Shown here piece by piece: positions 11,458 to 58,710 of a DNA stretch of 64,000 nt (its first letter is position 1; each line of letters opens with the position of its first letter). The notes under the pieces were generated by a model. That model made no database searches and was not told the origin of the DNA. It saw only the letters and a program-made list of their open reading frames with translations. A program made the translations under genes and the position numbers. This DNA comes from Cardiobacteriaceae bacterium. GTDB lineage: Bacteria > Pseudomonadota > Gammaproteobacteria > Cardiobacteriales > Cardiobacteriaceae. The stretch spans positions 124,001 through 188,000 of the forward strand of contig JAUNEA010000003.1 of the NCBI GenBank assembly GCA_030525785.1. Reading direction: 5' to 3'.

Positions 11458-11562
11458 AATAACTCCTGTGTGAAACAAAATATCAAAGCGCTTTGGGGAG
11501 ATTGTTGTGATTCGAGGGTTTGTCCGCTTCGCGTTCCCCTTCGGGTCACCCTCGAGCTCCCA

Positions 11563-11693
11563 CAAGGGGACGTGTCCCCTTGACCCCGGTCTAAGAAAGT
11601 ACAACACCCCACGCGTGGGGTGTTGTACTTTCAAAGGTTGCGGGGTGCAGGGTAATCATTCCCCTGCTGGGGGTTTGGGGGCAAAGCCCCCAA
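11563..11693. repeat. Multi-hairpin intergenic repeat, copy A
   Basis: Four hairpins follow each other: 11563-11582 (CAAGGGGA/TCCCCTTG), a perfect 38-bp palindrome at 11595-11632 with 17-bp arms around CGCG, 11646-11666 (GCAGGG/CCCTGC type), and 11675-11693 (TTGGGGGC/GCCCCCAA). A weaker GGGT/ACCC fold lies further left near 11540-11555. The conserved linkers (cttgaccccg, ttgcggggtgcaggg) match copies B and C, while the central stem sequence is unrelated. This copy interrupts the fucose operon between permease and mutarotase genes. Confidence 0.88.
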
Positions 11694-11720
11694 GTCAAAA
11701 CACCCTCCCCATAAAGCGCT

Positions 11721-12728
11721 TTAGTCTTGCGGCTTGCCAGAGGCGATACGCGAGATAATGAGGGCGAAGAGGATAAAGGTTCCTGTGATAAATTCAATCA
11801 CGGTACCTGACACTTGTAACGAACGCAGCAATTGGTCAATAAATTTCAACAACAGGATACCAGTGAGTGCGCCGAAGATAGAGCCGCGTCCGCCATTGAG
11901 TGAAATACCACCGATGACGCATGCTGCAAATACCGTGAAAATATAGCCTGAGCCTTGCGATTGTCCAACAGAAGCATACTGTGAGGTATAAAGCACACCT
12001 GCAAGTGCTGCCATAATGCTCGCAAACACCAACACCCCCATAATAACTTTCTCACTTTGAATGCCTGCTGCTTTTGCAGCTTGTGCATTACCACCAACGG
12101 CATAAAGCGAACGACCATGCCGTGTAAATTGCATGAATCCAATCAGCACCACCGCCAAGCTCACAAATACCCAAAACGACAACGACATACCCAAAAAGCT
12201 AAAATTCGCCAAGCCTGCAATCGATTTAGGCAATTGATACAAACTCGCACCACCTGTTAAGAAAGTTTGCAAACCACGCAGAGCTGTCAGCATACCAAGC
12301 GTGACGATAAAGCCGTTCAAGCGGAATTTCACAATCATCACCGCATTGAGCAAACCAACCAAACCACCAACCAACAACACCAGTGGCAAGGCTAAAAAGT
12401 CAGGTAAAAAGGCTCCACTCACATTCGGCGCAAAGCCAATACCTACCACTGCCCACACAGCAATAGCAGGCGCAAGACCAAAAGTAGACTCCAGCGACAA
12501 ATCCATACGCCCAATGATTAACACCATCGCCTGAGCCAGTACCAAAATCCCGATTTGAGTCGCCTGTTCAATAGGGATTTTCAAAATGCCCCATGTTAAG
12601 AAATTATCGGTGGTCAAATGCCCAATCAGCAAAATCAATAAAATCGGTGGTACGAGAACAAAATCTCGCAAGCTACTCCAGCGAAAACCTGTATTCAAAG
12701 CACTTTGTTGGGTTGTTGTACTACTCAT
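11721..12728 (-). CDS. Sugar ABC transporter permease (RbsC family), probably L-fucose
   Basis: 335 residues with about ten membrane helices, and the family signatures GRMDLSLESTFGLAPAIAVW near the N-terminus and AACVIGGISLNGGRGSIFGAL near the C-terminus. These are typical of carbohydrate-uptake CUT2 permeases such as RbsC. The ribosome site on the minus strand is AAGGAAGG. It sits 11 bases downstream of the ATPase gene. Together with the ATPase and binding protein it should import a sugar; the flanking oxidative fucose genes argue for L-fucose or a related 6-deoxy sugar. Confidence 0.9.
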   Translation of the reverse strand: MSSTTTQQSALNTGFRWSSLRDFVLVPPILLILLIGHLTTDNFLTWGILKIPIEQATQIGILVLAQAMVLIIGRMDLSLESTFGLAPAIAVWAVVGIGFAPNVSGAFLPDFLALPLVLLVGGLVGLLNAVMIVKFRLNGFIVTLGMLTALRGLQTFLTGGASLYQLPKSIAGLANFSFLGMSLSFWVFVSLAVVLIGFMQFTRHGRSLYAVGGNAQAAKAAGIQSEKVIMGVLVFASIMAALAGVLYTSQYASVGQSQGSGYIFTVFAACVIGGISLNGGRGSIFGALTGILLLKFIDQLLRSLQVSGTVIEFITGTFILFALIISRIASGKPQD

Positions 12729-27604: not shown

Positions 27605-30322
<2,718 letters not shown>

Positions 30323-30324
30323 CC

Positions 30325-31359
30325 ATGAGCATCAGCGAACGCAAGCGCGATCATCTCCGCGCCTTTGACCTCGACCCCGAGATTGAACGAGGCGGTAGTG
30401 GCTTTGCCTCGATTCGCCTCACCCATCGCGCCTTGCCCGAAATCAATTTTGACGAGATTGACACACGAACAGAATTTCTCGGCAAAGCGCTTTCCTTTCC
30501 GCTGATTATCGGCTCCATGACAGGTGGCGCTGATGAGGAAATGATGCGGATTAATCGACATTTAGCCGAAGCAGCGGAGGCTTGCCAAGTTGGGCTGGCT
30601 GTGGGTTCGCAACGCATCATGTTTCGCCACCCCAAAGCGCTTAGAAGCTTTGCCCTGCGTGATTTAGCTCCAACCATTCCTCTACTTGGCAATTTGGGCG
30701 CGGTGCAGCTGAATAAAGGTTTCACGCTTGAACATGCCGAAGCTGCGGTAAGCGCTTTGCAAGCTGATGGTTTGTATCTTCATCTCAACCCATTACAAGA
30801 AGCCATTCAGCCCGAAGGAGACCTCCAATTTGCTGGCTTGAGTGAGAAAATTATGGATTTGAGCCAACGTTTATCGGTGCCTGTGTGTGTCAAAGAAGTG
30901 GGTGCTGGGTTATCGAGCGTGGATATTGGGCTATTGGCGCATGGGAATATCGCTTATTTTGATGTGGCTGGGCGCGGAGGAACCTCATGGAGTCGCATTG
31001 AATACCACAGAAGCAACAATGATTTAGGTCTACTCTTCCAAGATTGGGGGCTGACAACGGTTGAAGCGCTTTGCATGGCAAAAGCCAATCACCCCAACCA
31101 ACGCTTCATTGCCAGTGGTGGCATACGCTCTGGTATTGATATCGCCAAAGCGCTTATTCTTGGCGCTGAAGTGTGTACTATCGCTGCCCCCTTCCTCAAA
31201 CCTGCGCAAGAATCCACAGAAGCCGTGATTCGAGTCATCAAAACCTTACACCAACAATACCAAACGGCGCTGTTTTTATTGGGTTGTATCAATAACAAAG
31301 CGCTTATAAATCAACATCATCTCATCATCGGAGGACTTCCTCATGCGTATCGGCATTAA
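30325..31359 (+). CDS. fni: Type 2 isopentenyl-diphosphate delta-isomerase
   Basis: 344 residues. FMN-dependent IDI-2 signatures: MSISERKRDHLRAF, IIGSMTGGADEEMMRIN, AVGSQRIMF, LHLNPLQEAIQPEGD, VCVKEVGAGLS, VAGRGGTSWSRIE and SGGIRSGIDIAKALILGAE. It interconverts IPP and DMAPP and needs FMN and NADPH. Its final 17 bases overlap mvaS in another frame. The extreme C-terminus (FLLGCINNKALINQHH) looks extended and carries a near palindrome. Confidence 0.94.
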   Translation: MSISERKRDHLRAFDLDPEIERGGSGFASIRLTHRALPEINFDEIDTRTEFLGKALSFPLIIGSMTGGADEEMMRINRHLAEAAEACQVGLAVGSQRIMFRHPKALRSFALRDLAPTIPLLGNLGAVQLNKGFTLEHAEAAVSALQADGLYLHLNPLQEAIQPEGDLQFAGLSEKIMDLSQRLSVPVCVKEVGAGLSSVDIGLLAHGNIAYFDVAGRGGTSWSRIEYHRSNNDLGLLFQDWGLTTVEALCMAKANHPNQRFIASGGIRSGIDIAKALILGAEVCTIAAPFLKPAQESTEAVIRVIKTLHQQYQTALFLLGCINNKALINQHHLIIGGLPHAYRH

Positions 31360-32482
31360 TCGCATTGGTTTTGCAACGGCGCGTTATTACTTGGATATGG
31401 ACGAACTCTCAGCCCATAACCAAACTGACCCCAACAAATATCGCACAGGCTTAGGGCAAGATAAAATCGCCATTTGCCCTCCTGATGAAGACATTGTTAC
31501 CCTCGCTTGCAAAGCGCTTTCCCCTATTGCAGCGAGCCGTGATTTATCCAACGTTGATACCTTACTCTTTGCCACCGAAAGTGGCATCGATCAATCCAAA
31601 GCCGCTGGGATTTATGTGCAAAAGCTGATGAACTTGCCCAAGCAAATGCGCATTGTGGAGCTGAAACAAGCGTGCTACAGCGCCACCGCCGCTCTACAGT
31701 TGGCGCGTAGTTATGTGGCAGAAAAGCCATCGCGCGAGGTTTTGGTTATTGCCAGCGATATCGCACGATACGATCGCGACAGTGCCGCCGAAGCCACACA
31801 AGGCGCAGGCGCTGTTGCCATGTTGATTACCCAAAATCCTGAAATCCTTGAGATTGAGCCAATCAGTGGGCTTTACAGTGAAGATATTATGGATTTCTTC
31901 CGCCCCAATCATCGCAAAACGCCTCTGGTAGATGGGCGATTTTCCACAACCGCCTACCTCAAAGCCTTAGAAGGCGCGTGGGAACATTACCAGCAACAAG
32001 GCGGTTTGGCTGACTTCAAAGCGCTTTGCTACCATCTCCCCTTTGGCAAAATGGGGGTTAAGGCGCATGAAAAATGGAGCAAACTCAATCATCAAACCCC
32101 TGATTTCTCCTTGCTTGATGCAGGCTTAATCTACAACCGACAAATCGGCAACAGCTACAGCGCCTCGCTCTACATCAGCCTCTGCTCTTTGCTGGAAAAT
32201 CGAGAGGATTTAGCAGGTCAGCGCATTGGTATGTTCAGCTATGGTTCAGGTTGTGTTTCGGAATTTTTCAGCGCACGCGTGTGCGAAGGTTACCAAAGCG
32301 CTTTGTTCCATCAACATCATCAAGCCATGCTTGAATCGCGTTCGCCCTTGCGTTACGAACAATACGCGCGTTGGCATACCCCTGATGATGGCGAATTTGG
32401 CGATGCTGTTTTTCATGATAGCGAAAGTGGCACCCCGCGCCTTGCTGCCATCACCCAACACCAGCGCCGCTATCAACCGTGA
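31343..32482 (+). CDS. mvaS: Hydroxymethylglutaryl-CoA synthase
   Basis: 379 residues. Thiolase-superfamily condensing enzyme: MRIGINRIGFATARYYLDM at the N-terminus, the acylated cysteine Cys111 in VELKQACYSATAAL, FRPNHRKTPLVDGRFS and GNSYSASLYISLCSLL, with GSGCVSEF near the C-terminus. Makes HMG-CoA from acetyl-CoA and acetoacetyl-CoA. Overlaps fni at its start and mvk at its stop (TGATG), consistent with translational coupling. Confidence 0.94.
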   Translation: MRIGINRIGFATARYYLDMDELSAHNQTDPNKYRTGLGQDKIAICPPDEDIVTLACKALSPIAASRDLSNVDTLLFATESGIDQSKAAGIYVQKLMNLPKQMRIVELKQACYSATAALQLARSYVAEKPSREVLVIASDIARYDRDSAAEATQGAGAVAMLITQNPEILEIEPISGLYSEDIMDFFRPNHRKTPLVDGRFSTTAYLKALEGAWEHYQQQGGLADFKALCYHLPFGKMGVKAHEKWSKLNHQTPDFSLLDAGLIYNRQIGNSYSASLYISLCSLLENREDLAGQRIGMFSYGSGCVSEFFSARVCEGYQSALFHQHHQAMLESRSPLRYEQYARWHTPDDGEFGDAVFHDSESGTPRLAAITQHQRRYQP

Positions 32483-33498
32483 TGCTAAGCGCCCAAGCGC
32501 CTGGAAAAATCATCATCACAGGCGAGCATGCGGTGGTTTATGGTGCGCCTGCGTTGGTTTGCGCCGTCCCTCGTTACACCACCGTATCCTATCAACCCCA
32601 CCCACAAAACCATCTCGATACCCTGCTCACAGGTATCTCTCGCGCTCGCTATCCCCTAAGCGCTTTGAAAAGCTTAAAACACAAGCTTGATAAGCGCTTT
32701 GAGGCATTTTTACGTGGCGATTTGCCTGTCCAACACATCTTGCATCGCCCTGATGATTTGCTTGCCTACACCCTCGCCAGCCTCGCGCGAAAAGTCGCCA
32801 ATCATCTCCCCCTACCCTACTCAGGCAAGCTCCATACCCAAAGCGCTTTGCCACTCGGCGCAGGCATGGGTTCTTCTGCTGCCGCCATCGCCGCCACCCT
32901 CGTTTTAACCGAACATCTGCTCCAATCGCCTTTAAGCCTAGAGGAACGCTTTGAGCATGTGCGATTTTGTGAACGTCTACAACATGGCAAAGGCAGCGCC
33001 ATTGATGCGGCAGCGGTGGTGTTCGGCGGTTTACAAAAGCTGGAAAATGGCGAACGCCAAAGCGCTTCCTTCTCCCTCAATGAACATTGGTATTACTGGC
33101 TAGATGGCATTCCCCAAGCCAGCACAGGAGAATGTGTCGCGCAAGTTCGCGCCCAATTTGGGCAAGACAAAGCGCTTTGGCAAAGCTTTGAGACCATCAT
33201 CAACGAACTGCTGCAAACACTCACTCAGGGCAACAACCCCCAAAGCGCTTTGCGTGAAAACCAAAAACTCCTACAGCATATTGGTGTCGTGCCTGAGGCA
33301 ACCGCCAAATGCATCGCCAACATCGAAGCCAGCGGTGGCGCTGCTAAAATCAGTGGCGCTGGGAGCGTGCGTGGGAATTTCGGAGGTATACTGCTGATTT
33401 ACCATGAAAACCCTGAAGCACTCGCCAAACTTATCCCCCCCAAAGCGCTTTGGGGCAAACTCACCCCTACCGAATACGGCGCACAACTCATCACATGA
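32482..33498 (+). CDS. mvk: Mevalonate kinase
   Basis: 338 residues from ATG 32482, coupled to the mvaS stop; a GTG three bases upstream is also in frame. GHMP kinase motifs: APGKIIITGEHAVVYGAPALV, ATP loop PLGAGMGSSAAAIAATLV, and the third motif KISGAGSVRGNFGGILLIY. It phosphorylates mevalonate. Phosphomevalonate kinase and diphosphomevalonate decarboxylase are not in the window and must lie elsewhere for a complete pathway. Exact palindromes encode QSAL twice and KALW twice. Confidence 0.92.
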   Translation: MLSAQAPGKIIITGEHAVVYGAPALVCAVPRYTTVSYQPHPQNHLDTLLTGISRARYPLSALKSLKHKLDKRFEAFLRGDLPVQHILHRPDDLLAYTLASLARKVANHLPLPYSGKLHTQSALPLGAGMGSSAAAIAATLVLTEHLLQSPLSLEERFEHVRFCERLQHGKGSAIDAAAVVFGGLQKLENGERQSASFSLNEHWYYWLDGIPQASTGECVAQVRAQFGQDKALWQSFETIINELLQTLTQGNNPQSALRENQKLLQHIGVVPEATAKCIANIEASGGAAKISGAGSVRGNFGGILLIYHENPEALAKLIPPKALWGKLTPTEYGAQLIT

Positions 33499-33806
33499 AT
33501 AAACTACCCTCCTAGCCTACTCATATTTTGCTCCAAAGTACTTGGTGAGAACTGCTTTCTTTGGGGGTTTCACCCCCAAGCCCCCACAAGGGGTGTTACA
33601 CCCCTTGACCCCAGAGCATTAAAAAGTAAACCCCCCACTCAAAACAAAGTTTTGCGTGGGGGGTTTACTTTTTAAAATACTTTGCGGGGTGCAGGGGCAT
33701 CATGCCCCTGCTGGGGTGTGGGGCAAAGCCCCACAAACAAAGAAGCTTTCACAAAGCGCTTTGAAGCAAAGTATCGGTAAGCTAGGAAGATAGCTTATTG
33801 GCGTGT
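33499..33806. other. Intergenic region between mvk and the TonB receptor
   Basis: This 308-base gap between converging genes holds no credible gene. Most of it is the multi-hairpin repeat copy B; a CAAAGCGCTTTG palindrome lies at about 33752-33763. The hairpins could act as a two-way terminator for the mevalonate operon and the receptor gene. Confidence 0.8.
33561..33734. repeat. Multi-hairpin intergenic repeat, copy B
   Basis: The clearest copy, with five consecutive hairpins: 33561-33579 (TTGGGGGT/ACCCCCAA), 33587-33607 (CAAGGGGTG/CACCCCTTG), a long central stem with 18-bp arms at 33621-33638 and 33656-33673 whose loop itself folds (CAAAAC/GTTTTG), 33691-33711 (GCAGGGGCA/TGCCCCTGC), and 33718-33734 (GTGGGGC/GCCCCAC). 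The left and right flanks are imperfect inverted copies of each other. The linkers CCCCTTGACCCC and TTGCGGGGTGCAGGGG are shared with copies A and C. Confidence 0.9.
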
Positions 33807-55605: not shown

Positions 55606-57120
55606 ATGTCTCGGAAATATTCCACTCGCGCTTTGCTCGCGCTCACCATCAGCACTATTCTTAGCCAAAGCGCTTTTGCTCAAGAACGCTCTAACCCCAA
55701 AGCCCAATATGAAGCCAAAACCAAAAGCGCTTTGGAATCCACACAAGAAGAACCCAGCAAAATCCAACAACGCGAACTAAACGCTCACATCTTGGCACAA
55801 AATAAACTCAGCACAGAATCCCCTCTCCATGCTTATACGGACGAAGATTTAAGTCAAAATCAAGAATTATTAGAGAAAGTCTTTCTGATGGCTCTCATTC
55901 AAATGGATCGCCCTGCTTTAGAAGAATTGATTAAACTCTATCAACCTATGCCCAATCGTGATGATTCTTTAATTGATTGGGCAAATGCTATTATTATTTC
56001 CCCAACCAATCGTGAACAATCTATTAGCGAAATGCGTAAACTCATTTCTCATTTCCCTGATAATGATTACATACGCTTCCAATTAGCAACTTTCTTATTC
56101 TTCAATGAAGAATTTATCGCTGCCAAAGACCAATTTGAAAAAACCAAAAGCTCAAATAGATTAAAAGAAGCAGACCGTAAGCTGATTGATGAATTTATCA
56201 CAGTCATTGATAACAAAGATCGCTGGAATTTTAATGCCAGTGCTACATTCTTAAATGATAAGAACTTAAGCAACTCTGCTCCTGTTGGCACCAAAATGCT
56301 TTTGCCTAATGGTGGCTCATTCACCCAATCTACACCTCTAGAAGAAGGTCGTGGCTTTGCGCTCAATCTTGGCGCAGATAAGCGCTTTAGCTTAGGAGGC
56401 GGTCGATACATTTCATTGGAATTAGGCAGCTACATCAAGCATTACTGGAACAACAAAAAATACAACGAAATTATCTTCAATGCTGGCGTTGGCTATGGTT
56501 TGAATTATAAAGGTTGGAATATAGAAGTTTCACCCAATATTTCACGTCGTTTGTATGGCGGTGGCTCAAGTGGTGATGGTAAGCAATTACATGCCTATTA
56601 TACCTCTTATGGCATTAATACTTATGCCAGTACTTGGGTAAATCCAAAAATTCGTTATAGCTTAAACTATAGCTTTGACTATGATAAATATGACCGCGAT
56701 GCGCTTGCCAACCGTCAAAATGGTGCAACTCATTCTATCAGCAATTCTATTACCTATATCGCAAGCCCCAAACAATATTGGTCAGCCAGCCTTAACCTTG
56801 CCCACCGCAATTCTAAAGACGATTCCAATAGCTATAATCGTATTGGGGGCAATATTGCTTGGGGGCAAGAATGGCCTATGGGATTCTCTAGCCGTTTATC
56901 TTTAGGATTGGCACAACGCAATTACTCAGAAATGGATTTCTTCCAAATCAAACAGAAAAATAAAGAATACAGCGCTGGTCTCTCCATTTGGAACAAAGCG
57001 CTTCATTATCAAGGATTAACACCTCGCCTCACTTGGAGCTATAACAAAACCGATAGCAGTATCCCTTTCTACAGCTATGACAAGCACCAAATCTTCCTCG
57101 AAGTCAGCAAAACGTTTTAA
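55606..57120 (+). CDS. Surface lipoprotein assembly modifier (Slam)-like outer-membrane protein
   Basis: 504 residues from ATG 55606, chosen for the GGAGG 8 bases upstream. Signal peptide ends SQSAFAQ. An N-terminal helical/TPR-like region (about 30-200) is followed by a beta-barrel domain starting RWNFNASATFLNDKNL (about residue 206) and ending KHQIFLEVSKTF, which matches the DUF560 barrel of Slam proteins. Slam exports lipoproteins to the cell surface. No candidate surface lipoprotein lies beside it; neighbours are the siderophore importer and gor. The substrate must be elsewhere or it is a divergent member. Confidence 0.78.
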   Translation: MSRKYSTRALLALTISTILSQSAFAQERSNPKAQYEAKTKSALESTQEEPSKIQQRELNAHILAQNKLSTESPLHAYTDEDLSQNQELLEKVFLMALIQMDRPALEELIKLYQPMPNRDDSLIDWANAIIISPTNREQSISEMRKLISHFPDNDYIRFQLATFLFFNEEFIAAKDQFEKTKSSNRLKEADRKLIDEFITVIDNKDRWNFNASATFLNDKNLSNSAPVGTKMLLPNGGSFTQSTPLEEGRGFALNLGADKRFSLGGGRYISLELGSYIKHYWNNKKYNEIIFNAGVGYGLNYKGWNIEVSPNISRRLYGGGSSGDGKQLHAYYTSYGINTYASTWVNPKIRYSLNYSFDYDKYDRDALANRQNGATHSISNSITYIASPKQYWSASLNLAHRNSKDDSNSYNRIGGNIAWGQEWPMGFSSRLSLGLAQRNYSEMDFFQIKQKNKEYSAGLSIWNKALHYQGLTPRLTWSYNKTDSSIPFYSYDKHQIFLEVSKTF

Positions 57121-57159
57121 AGCGCTTTGGGGGCGTTGAAGTTTATTTAAGGTTTTTCT

Positions 57160-57321
57160 GGGGCTTCGCCCTACGCCCCACAAGGGGTGGAACACCCCTT
57201 GACCCCAGAATATTAAAACCAGAAAACCCCCATTTCGGGGGTTTTCTGGTTTTTAAATACTTTGTGGGGGTTCAGGGGGAATCATTCCCCCTGATGGGGG
57301 TTTGGGGGTGAAACCCCCAAA
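57160..57321. repeat. Multi-hairpin intergenic repeat, copy C
   Basis: Hairpins at 57161-57171 (GGGC/GCCC), 57181-57201 (CAAGGGGTG/CACCCCTTG), a central stem with 17-bp arms at 57215-57231 and 57237-57253, 57273-57293 (CAGGGGGAA/TTCCCCCTG), and 57301-57321 (TTTGGGGGT/ACCCCCAAA). It lies between the converging Slam and gor genes. The central stem shares no sequence with copies A and B. It is flanked by palindrome copies at 57118 and 57349. Confidence 0.9.
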
Positions 57322-57357
57322 GAAACGTCAAATAGTCTCCAGCACCCCAAAGCGCTT

Positions 57358-58710
57358 TTAACGCATGGTGACCCATTCTTCGGCGCTGGTGGGGTGAATG
57401 GCAACGGTTGCATCAAAATCTTTTTTACTCGCGCCCATAACTACCGCCACAGCAAAGCCTTGAATCATCTCATCAGCGCCATCGCCAATCATCTGCATGC
57501 CAACAATCTTTTCATCTGCCCCTACGCAAATCAGCTTCATCAACGTTTTTGGCTTATGCACCGCAAATGTACGAACCATTGGCGTAAACTGGCTACGATA
57601 AACTTTAACCTGCTCAAAGCGCTTTTTCGCCTCATCTTCTGTTAAACCAACCGCGCCGATAGGTGGGTGAGTAAACATCACCGTTGGGATATTGTCGAAA
57701 TTTTGGCGCAAAGCGCTTTGCCCTGCGAACAATCGCATCGCCAACTTACGACCAGCCGCGATAGCAACAGGCGTGAGTTCTAAAGCCTCTGTGACATCGC
57801 CAATAGCATAAATCCCTGAAACATTAGTATTTTGGAAAGCATCAACAGGAATTTTGCCCGAAGGTTTCACTTGCACCCCAGCTGCCTCCAAATTCAGCTC
57901 ATCAACATTAGGCATACGCCCTAAAGCCCAGAGGCAGAAAGCGCTTTGCACGGTTTCGCCGTTATCTAATGTAGCAGAAATACTTTCGCCATCTTTCGCA
58001 AGCTTCTGAACATTCGCATTTTTAATCACACGAATCCCCTGCTCAATCATCGATTGTTCCAACATTTCGGCAATGTCTTTATCTACTTGGCGCAACAACC
58101 TCTCGCCACGCACCACCAAAGTCACTTGCGTTCCCAATGCCTGTAAAACGCCAGCCATTTCGCATGCAATATAGCCACCGCCAACAATCAAAGCGCTTTG
58201 CGGCTGTTTTTCGAGCGCAAAGAAATCATCAGAAGTAGCGCCCAATTCCGCCCCTTCAATCTCAGGAATGACAGGTTTACCGCCTGTGGCAATGATAATG
58301 TGCGGAGCATGATAATGTTCACCATTGACCATAATGGTTTGAGCATCAACAAATTGCGCCTCACCACGAACCAAACTAACACCTGATTTTTCAAGATTTT
58401 GCCCATAAATACCATTCAATCGAGCAATTTGGGCATCGCGTTTTTCCTTAAAACTTGCCCAATCAAAACGCAAAGGAGCCAAAGCGCTTTGGGGTAAATC
58501 AAAGCCAAAAAGAGGAGCGTTATGCACGGCTTCTGCTGTTTGTGCCGCATACCAAAACCATTTCTTCGGCACACAACCAACATTCACACACGTTCCACCC
58601 AATTTTGCCTTTTCAACCACCAACACTCTCGCGCCATGCTCCGCCGCGCGTCTCGCGCTGGCAATGCCACCAGAGCCACCACCCAGACAAATCAAATCGA
58701 ATGTTTCCAT
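57358..58710 (-). CDS. gor: Glutathione-disulfide reductase
   Basis: 450 residues from ATG 58710, with TAAGGAG. FAD motif [21 protein letters not shown], redox disulfide Cys41/Cys46 in [16 protein letters not shown](P) motif [21 protein letters not shown] motif 2 [23 protein letters not shown], and dimer-interface base [15 protein letters not shown]. Glutathione reductase is favoured over other family members by VGCVPKK and the C-terminus. It keeps glutathione reduced with NADPH. Confidence 0.93.

Follow-up and report, generated by a model that had tools for sequence, protein, structure and literature searches.

The stretch of Cardiobacteriaceae DNA analysed here (64,000 nucleotides of contig JAUNEA010000003.1, positions 124,001 to 188,000; hereafter the window) contains three intergenic arrays of hairpins, whose stems are paired in each copy. 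The question raised by these arrays is whether they represent a mobile element, a structured RNA or a two-way terminator, the three possibilities named in the original prediction, and what keeps the stems paired.

Architecture and predicted fold of the element

The three arrays, termed copies A, B and C, were found at the places and with the order of hairpins originally predicted. The core of each copy reads hp1-CCCC-hp2-ACCCC-central stem-GGGGT-hp3-GGGG-hp4, where hp1 to hp4 are side hairpins. All three copies keep this order, but in copy A the place of hp1 is taken by another hairpin of larger size. In copy B, sequence and fold together placed hp1 (TTGGGGGTTTCACCCCCAA) at 33561-33579, hp2, of the CAAG/CTTG arm type, at 33587-33607, hp3, of the GCAG/CTGC arm type, at 33691-33711, and hp4 at 33717-33735. 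Between them lie the strands of a trunk: in the fold, CCCCC (33581-33585) pairs with GGGG (33713-33716), and ACCCC (33608-33612) pairs with GGGGT (33686-33690). The central stem of copy B (33619-33675), recognized by both an inverted-repeat scan and the fold, is 27 bp long with 26 paired positions, and its succession of A-tract and C-run, then G-run and T-tract, is terminator-like.

Outside the core of copy B, the left flank (33510-33558) pairs with the right flank (33739-33787, with AAAGCGCTTT at 33753-33762), which was its best partner among 25 right flanks and is also paired with it in the fold; the whole element including this outer stem occupies about 33510-33787. Copy A extends from palindrome to palindrome at 11485-11722 (sequence and fold) and has a central stem of 19 bp with no loop at 11595-11632 (inverted-repeat scan). 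Copy C, delimited by flank pairing and fold, occupies 57113-57362 including its outer stem, with the palindromes at 57119 and 57349 and, in the fold, a central stem at about 57213-57256. The spans originally given were too short, each copy being enclosed by an outer, locus-specific stem. Likewise, the flanks had been described as imperfect inverted copies of each other, and each copy's own flanks do pair, but the outer stem itself had been missed.

Either strand could be folded, as RNA or as single-stranded DNA, into a predicted trunk with two successive four-way junctions. In the folds of B, A and a further copy, L181, the trunk consists of the outer stem, hp1 and hp4 opposed to each other, CCCC:GGGG, hp2 and hp3 opposed to each other, ACCCC:GGGGT, and the central stem, in this order; the predicted fold of copy C deviates somewhat at hp1/hp4. 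A full core is about 170 nt long, and the whole structure, with four side hairpins and the outer stem, measures 250-300 nt. The folding energy of copy B was -165 kcal/mol versus -94 in dinucleotide shuffles (z -14.7); against dinucleotide shuffles z was -12.1 for copy C and -9.5 for copy A, and it was -15.5 for L181 folded as DNA. RNAalifold recovered the same trunk unprompted from 21 aligned copies, with hp1, which is poorly aligned there, outside the consensus. In these 21 copies, 96% of pairing cells were paired versus 88% in shuffles, 16 of the 48 pairs had changed on both sides, and the covariation score was 0.210 versus 0.080 in shuffles and at most 0.041 with the partners slid. The core carries two distinct arm types, CAAG/CTTG and GCAG/CTGC, and its side hairpins are combined differently from copy to copy. 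The element is nearly symmetric, and the covariance model described below matches both of its strands.

Dispersal and location in the host genome

A pattern for hp2 matched 35 times in the 1.62 Mb genome, versus no match for the control pattern. The covariance model and genome search proposed with the original prediction were carried out; the model, built from 21 copies, picked out about 35 places, with 63 matches when both strands are counted. A lack of further copies, or central stems left unpaired, had been named as evidence against the prediction; neither was observed, since these places exist and the central stems of the full copies are paired. At an E-value of 0.01, the model had no match in any of 39 genomes from the family, order and class of the host. 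The nearest relatives found belong to other genera of the family. Four contig ends lie inside the element, as expected since repeats break assembly. Copies L003, L004 and L006 have identical cores of about 168 nt between flanks that are 22-29% identical, which is the chance level, and two copies of another class are also identical to each other. These identical cores between unrelated flanks show that the core was copied to many sites within the genome, supporting the dispersal part of the suggestion that this is a mobile element. A decayed copy in inverted orientation was also seen between convergent genes at L194:6957-7160 (G000:C11:66973-67149).

Among 29 copies, 22 lie between convergent, six between tandem and one between divergent genes. 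The convergent fraction (22/29) was compared with a background of 41/324, obtained by the same crude gene calling as for the copies (Fisher p 7e-13). Copies are nearly always located just behind stop codons, and 12 of the 53 convergent pairs called in 464 kb hold the element. Several element-free convergent pairs carry simple two-way terminators such as AAAAAACCTCCCA..TGGGAGGTTTTTT, and perfect ones with an A-tract and a T-tract are found in element-free pairs at L183:3053-3088, L186:5170-5197 and L195:6437-6466. The central stems share with these ordinary terminators of the genome the grammar of A-tract and C-run followed by G-run and T-tract. Bidirectional intrinsic terminators thus resemble the element in this grammar and in their position between convergent stop codons, whereas the stem of the element sits within a much larger structure of side hairpins and outer stem. 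A scan for simple terminators did not call the central stems of the three window copies, partly because it asks for a T-tract free of pairing and for a loop no larger than 8. No promoter-like site was found in the three window copies. Location and stem grammar point to a putative terminator or insulator role in the host genome; the two-way terminator of the original prediction is compatible with the location. Upstream of copy B, a run of genes at 29270-33498 was judged by eye to belong to the mevalonate pathway, with candidate genes for HMG-CoA reductase, type 2 isopentenyl-diphosphate isomerase, HMG-CoA synthase and mevalonate kinase.

Occurrence in other phyla, viruses and plasmids

The pattern CAAGGGGN7CCCCTTGACCCC was found in at least 118 stretches of a species-representative collection, and the hosts among the matches listed were Synergistaceae, Defluviitaleaceae and other Clostridia, relatives of Desulfovibrio, Rhodospirillales, Magnetobacterium and other Nitrospirota, Myxococcota, and Dictyobacter. 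When 16 such genomes were searched with a looser pattern, every one had between 2 and 116 copies, and the reversed control had none in all 16. The covariance model matched 12 of 12 such genomes, at full length in the best cases (4e-24 in Oleispirillum, 1e-23 to 3e-23 in two Synergistaceae) and weakly in two Nitrospirota and Dictyobacter; these E-values are rough by construction, and the genomes, chosen for holding hp2, are not a survey. Multiple copies of the architecture, with both arm types, are present in Synergistaceae, Rhodospirillales-type bacteria, Desulfovibrio and clostridial MAGs, and copies from Synergistaceae and Oleispirillum have the same trunk, arms and linkers in their predicted folds. 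Synergistaceae copies mostly combine one GCAG/CTGC arm with one CAAG/CTTG arm, as in the host genome, with unlike central stems. As these stems do not have the A-tract/T-tract polarity of a terminator, termination cannot be the common role. The retention of two arm identities across phyla suggests a constraint that template switching (see below) does not explain. Outside the host genome, the outer stems are less clearly specific to their locus or give a mixed picture, copies do not as a rule lie between convergent genes, and the comparison of own with cross flanks in other phyla gave no clear signal, partly since copies there have the sequence adjoining the core in common.

In an evenly drawn sample of other Pseudomonadota, 35 of 248 species, none from the host's own class, matched at 1e-6, a figure that is not a count of full elements; the matches inspected at 1e-9 to 1e-12 were mostly half elements or hairpin arrays. 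These weaker matches would be expected if G-run hairpins with ACCCC/GGGGT linkers arose repeatedly in members unrelated by descent, making the likeness between phyla one of convergence. The little sequence identity beyond arms and linkers, the unlike central stems and the selection of the other-phylum genomes for hp2 agree with such an origin, whereas the absence of the reversed control pattern from all 16 genomes and the full-length model matches, to 1e-24 and with both arm types in place, do not. We consider convergence possible, though on balance doubtful.

Arrays of GGGGTCC hairpins, mostly without a matching left half, were observed in distant Pseudomonadota (L337-L346; G104, G089), some of them behind other conserved inverted repeats. 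In a viral collection only five stretches matched, and an IMG/VR contig (L330:2957) carries a seemingly complete element. A search of plasmids with copy B gave one weak partial match, and one with an Oleispirillum copy gave none.

Origin of the stems and alternative explanations

Even copies whose cores are identical have entirely different outer stems, and the flanks pair within a copy, not with the flanks of other copies. When the 75-nt flanks of each copy were tried against those of every other, the partner from the same copy ranked first among 25 in 24 of 25 copies, with a mean pairing energy of -62 versus -32 kcal/mol for cross pairs. Most outer stems contain AAAGCGCTTT; the stems lie at nearly equal distances from the core on both sides, and both stop codons are often included. 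This sequence occurs 129 times in the window versus 0.4 expected (one of them at 33442-33451), and CAAAGCGCTTTG occurs 1756 times in the genome versus 0-8 times in each of 20 relatives; among the genomes searched, this highly iterated palindrome is private to the host genus. The flanks are inverted repeats, and AAAGCGCTTT at both ends, being a palindrome, reads as a direct as well as an inverted repeat. HIP1 of cyanobacteria (PMC4390886) is similarly a short palindrome iterated about once per kb, but the palindrome of the host differs from it (CAAAGCGCTTTG) and merely marks the outer stems, not being the element itself.

Two copies bear on how the outer stem was formed. In copy L027 (L184:13143-13407), a perfect outer repeat of 34/34 bp reaches into the left gene, where it covers the 11 coding bases that precede the palindrome, with its second arm lying between genes. 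At copy L022, the outer stem is contained in the coding ends of two genes, dusA and pepD; compared with relatives, the C-termini of both appear native. The stem at L022 is therefore not an old terminator hairpin; as both C-termini look native, no donor side could be distinguished there. Copying of one flank onto the other would be the simplest account of the outer stem.

In the copies scanned, central stems are 19-27 bp long with at most one mismatch. The original prediction held that the central stem is wholly different in each copy yet paired; the pairing was confirmed and is perfect in nearly all of them, but a handful of sequence classes recur (TTAAAAAGTAAAACCCCCAC.., TTTAAAACAGAAAACCCCC.., AAAACAAAACCCCCTAGTTC.. 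and AAAACAGTAGACCCAGTTTC.., plus single ones such as that of copy A). Within a class, the apex may be inverted: L020 carries the apex of eight copies as its exact reverse complement, and L010, L023 and L183 carry that of L009 and L024 in the same way. Template switching in replication can build or repair a perfect hairpin stem in a single step, and it can leave compensatory changes that require no selection (PMC8794818); it also homogenizes the arms of inverted repeats and inverts the spacer or apex (PMC8604942). Of its features, apex block inversion and homogenized arms were found here, and the element shares with the hairpins of these two studies perfect stems, block compensatory change, apex inversion and inverted copies. 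Template switching differs in being a process of mutation and no element in itself; in this genome it would operate on a conserved core found at many sites. The covariation had been taken to show that structure, not sequence, is kept. Since template switching mimics compensatory change and apex inversions are present, covariation alone is no proof of selection on structure; it establishes that pairing of the stems is maintained but not for what reason, and in a dispersed palindrome it is not enough by itself to prove a functional RNA.

Purifying selection on the fold of a functional RNA (a 3' UTR stabilizer, sponge or protein-binding RNA) with compensatory substitutions would nevertheless account for the strong fold, for both-side changes above shuffles and slid controls, and for the recurrence of both arm types and the ACCCC/GGGGT linkers in other phyla. 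Such an RNA is difficult to reconcile with the near symmetry of the element and model matches on both strands, with the lack of promoter-like sites in the three copies and of any Rfam match at the gathering score in the window, with outer stems that differ wholly among identical-core copies, and with the apex inversions, and we regard it as unlikely.

The original prediction found no fit among the families known to it, and no family tested here fits. No published description of the motif or element was found in the literature searched, which was only part of the literature, and a name may exist elsewhere. REP and REPIN sequences (GTAG- and CGTC-tagged; PMC3733652, PMC3116915) are also short multicopy intergenic palindromes with GC-rich hairpins, dispersal within genomes and patchy distribution. 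Unlike them, the element has a four-hairpin core, a trunk closed by ACCCC/GGGGT, and variable inner and outer stems, and its 21-copy consensus has CCCC/ACCCC/GGGGT linkers instead of GTAG or CGTC at the hairpin foot. A search for the Y1 transposase (RAYT, PF01797), which matched in 5 of 14 control genomes, gave no match in the host genome (93.7% complete) or in six of seven other hosts. The element has neither of the two REP/REPIN defining features tested, and the lack of a Y1 transposase in the host genome rules against a RAYT/REP origin. MITEs are likewise non-coding and multicopy with inverted symmetry, but each site of the element has its own inverted flanks, and no cognate autonomous element was found: the left ends inspected (35 left ends in the assembled genome) were those of complete copies, of half copies or of copies truncated at the end of a contig, and none marked an autonomous relative sharing these ends.

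If the element were a classical non-autonomous transposon of the MITE or REPIN-like kind, a transposase acting in trans would have to recognize its folded ends and insert it into hairpin loops. Neither an autonomous copy around the left ends nor a transposase of the Y1 class searched was seen in the host genome, the flanks, apart from the palindrome they share, are inverted and not direct repeats, and empty hairpins of the outer-stem kind were absent from the 464 kb scanned. Multiple copies with identical cores at unrelated sites, and a distribution that skips all 39 relatives yet includes many copies in distant phyla, are what such a transposon would produce; it nonetheless seems improbable.

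All inverted repeats of outer-stem strength in 464 kb are outer or central stems of elements, with one exception, the plain two-way terminator at L183:3053-3088; no long inverted repeat comparable to the outer stem was found there without the element, and the core is therefore unlikely to have entered ready-made hairpins. Entry of the core into the loop of a long terminator hairpin that was there before it and became the outer stem, as the location behind stop codons and a few short double-palindrome hairpins with small loops (e.g. L183:8933-8973) might suggest, is highly improbable given this lack of element-free hairpins of comparable stem length and the L022 stem inside both coding ends.

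The explanation we prefer, which we believe has about an even chance of being correct, is that the arrays are dispersed palindromes that serve as two-way terminators, or are tolerated as such, and whose stems template switching makes and keeps perfect. The non-coding palindromic core, which has been copied to many sites, mostly between convergent genes, may act there, or at least be tolerated, as a bidirectional transcription terminator. Judging from the footprints described above, template switching of the replication fork at the palindrome would make and keep the stems perfect, homogenizing the arms of the central stem and flipping its apex. It may also copy one flank onto the other, inverted, ending near the AAAGCGCTTT shared by both gene ends, and this would yield the locus-specific outer stem. 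Terminator function, mechanism of spread and origin of the outer stem are what we infer, and the account by termination and template switching overlaps in part with those by functional RNA and by transposition. A further-reaching proposal, which we hold to be rather unlikely, is a transposase-less, structure-encoded mobile DNA present across phyla, which would multiply and rebuild its stems by replication strand switching, take its outer stem from the flank of each site, and double as an insulator of convergent genes. If the preferred explanation is right, the arrays belong to a class of intergenic elements that is widespread in bacteria but has no name, and for which a fold of two stacked four-way junctions is predicted. 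They would offer one system in which to ask whether covariation in repeats stems from selection or template switching, and by what route palindromic elements can spread when no transposase is evident.

Two further arrangements involving the iterated palindrome were observed. At L197:8990-9170 (G000:C7), a hairpin formed by the iterated palindrome lies upstream of a transporter gene and is flanked by half elements, one of each type, in an inside-out arrangement. At L184:18337-18368 and L184:8375-8403, palindromes centred on the iterated palindrome lie between convergent genes and may represent a second type of terminator.
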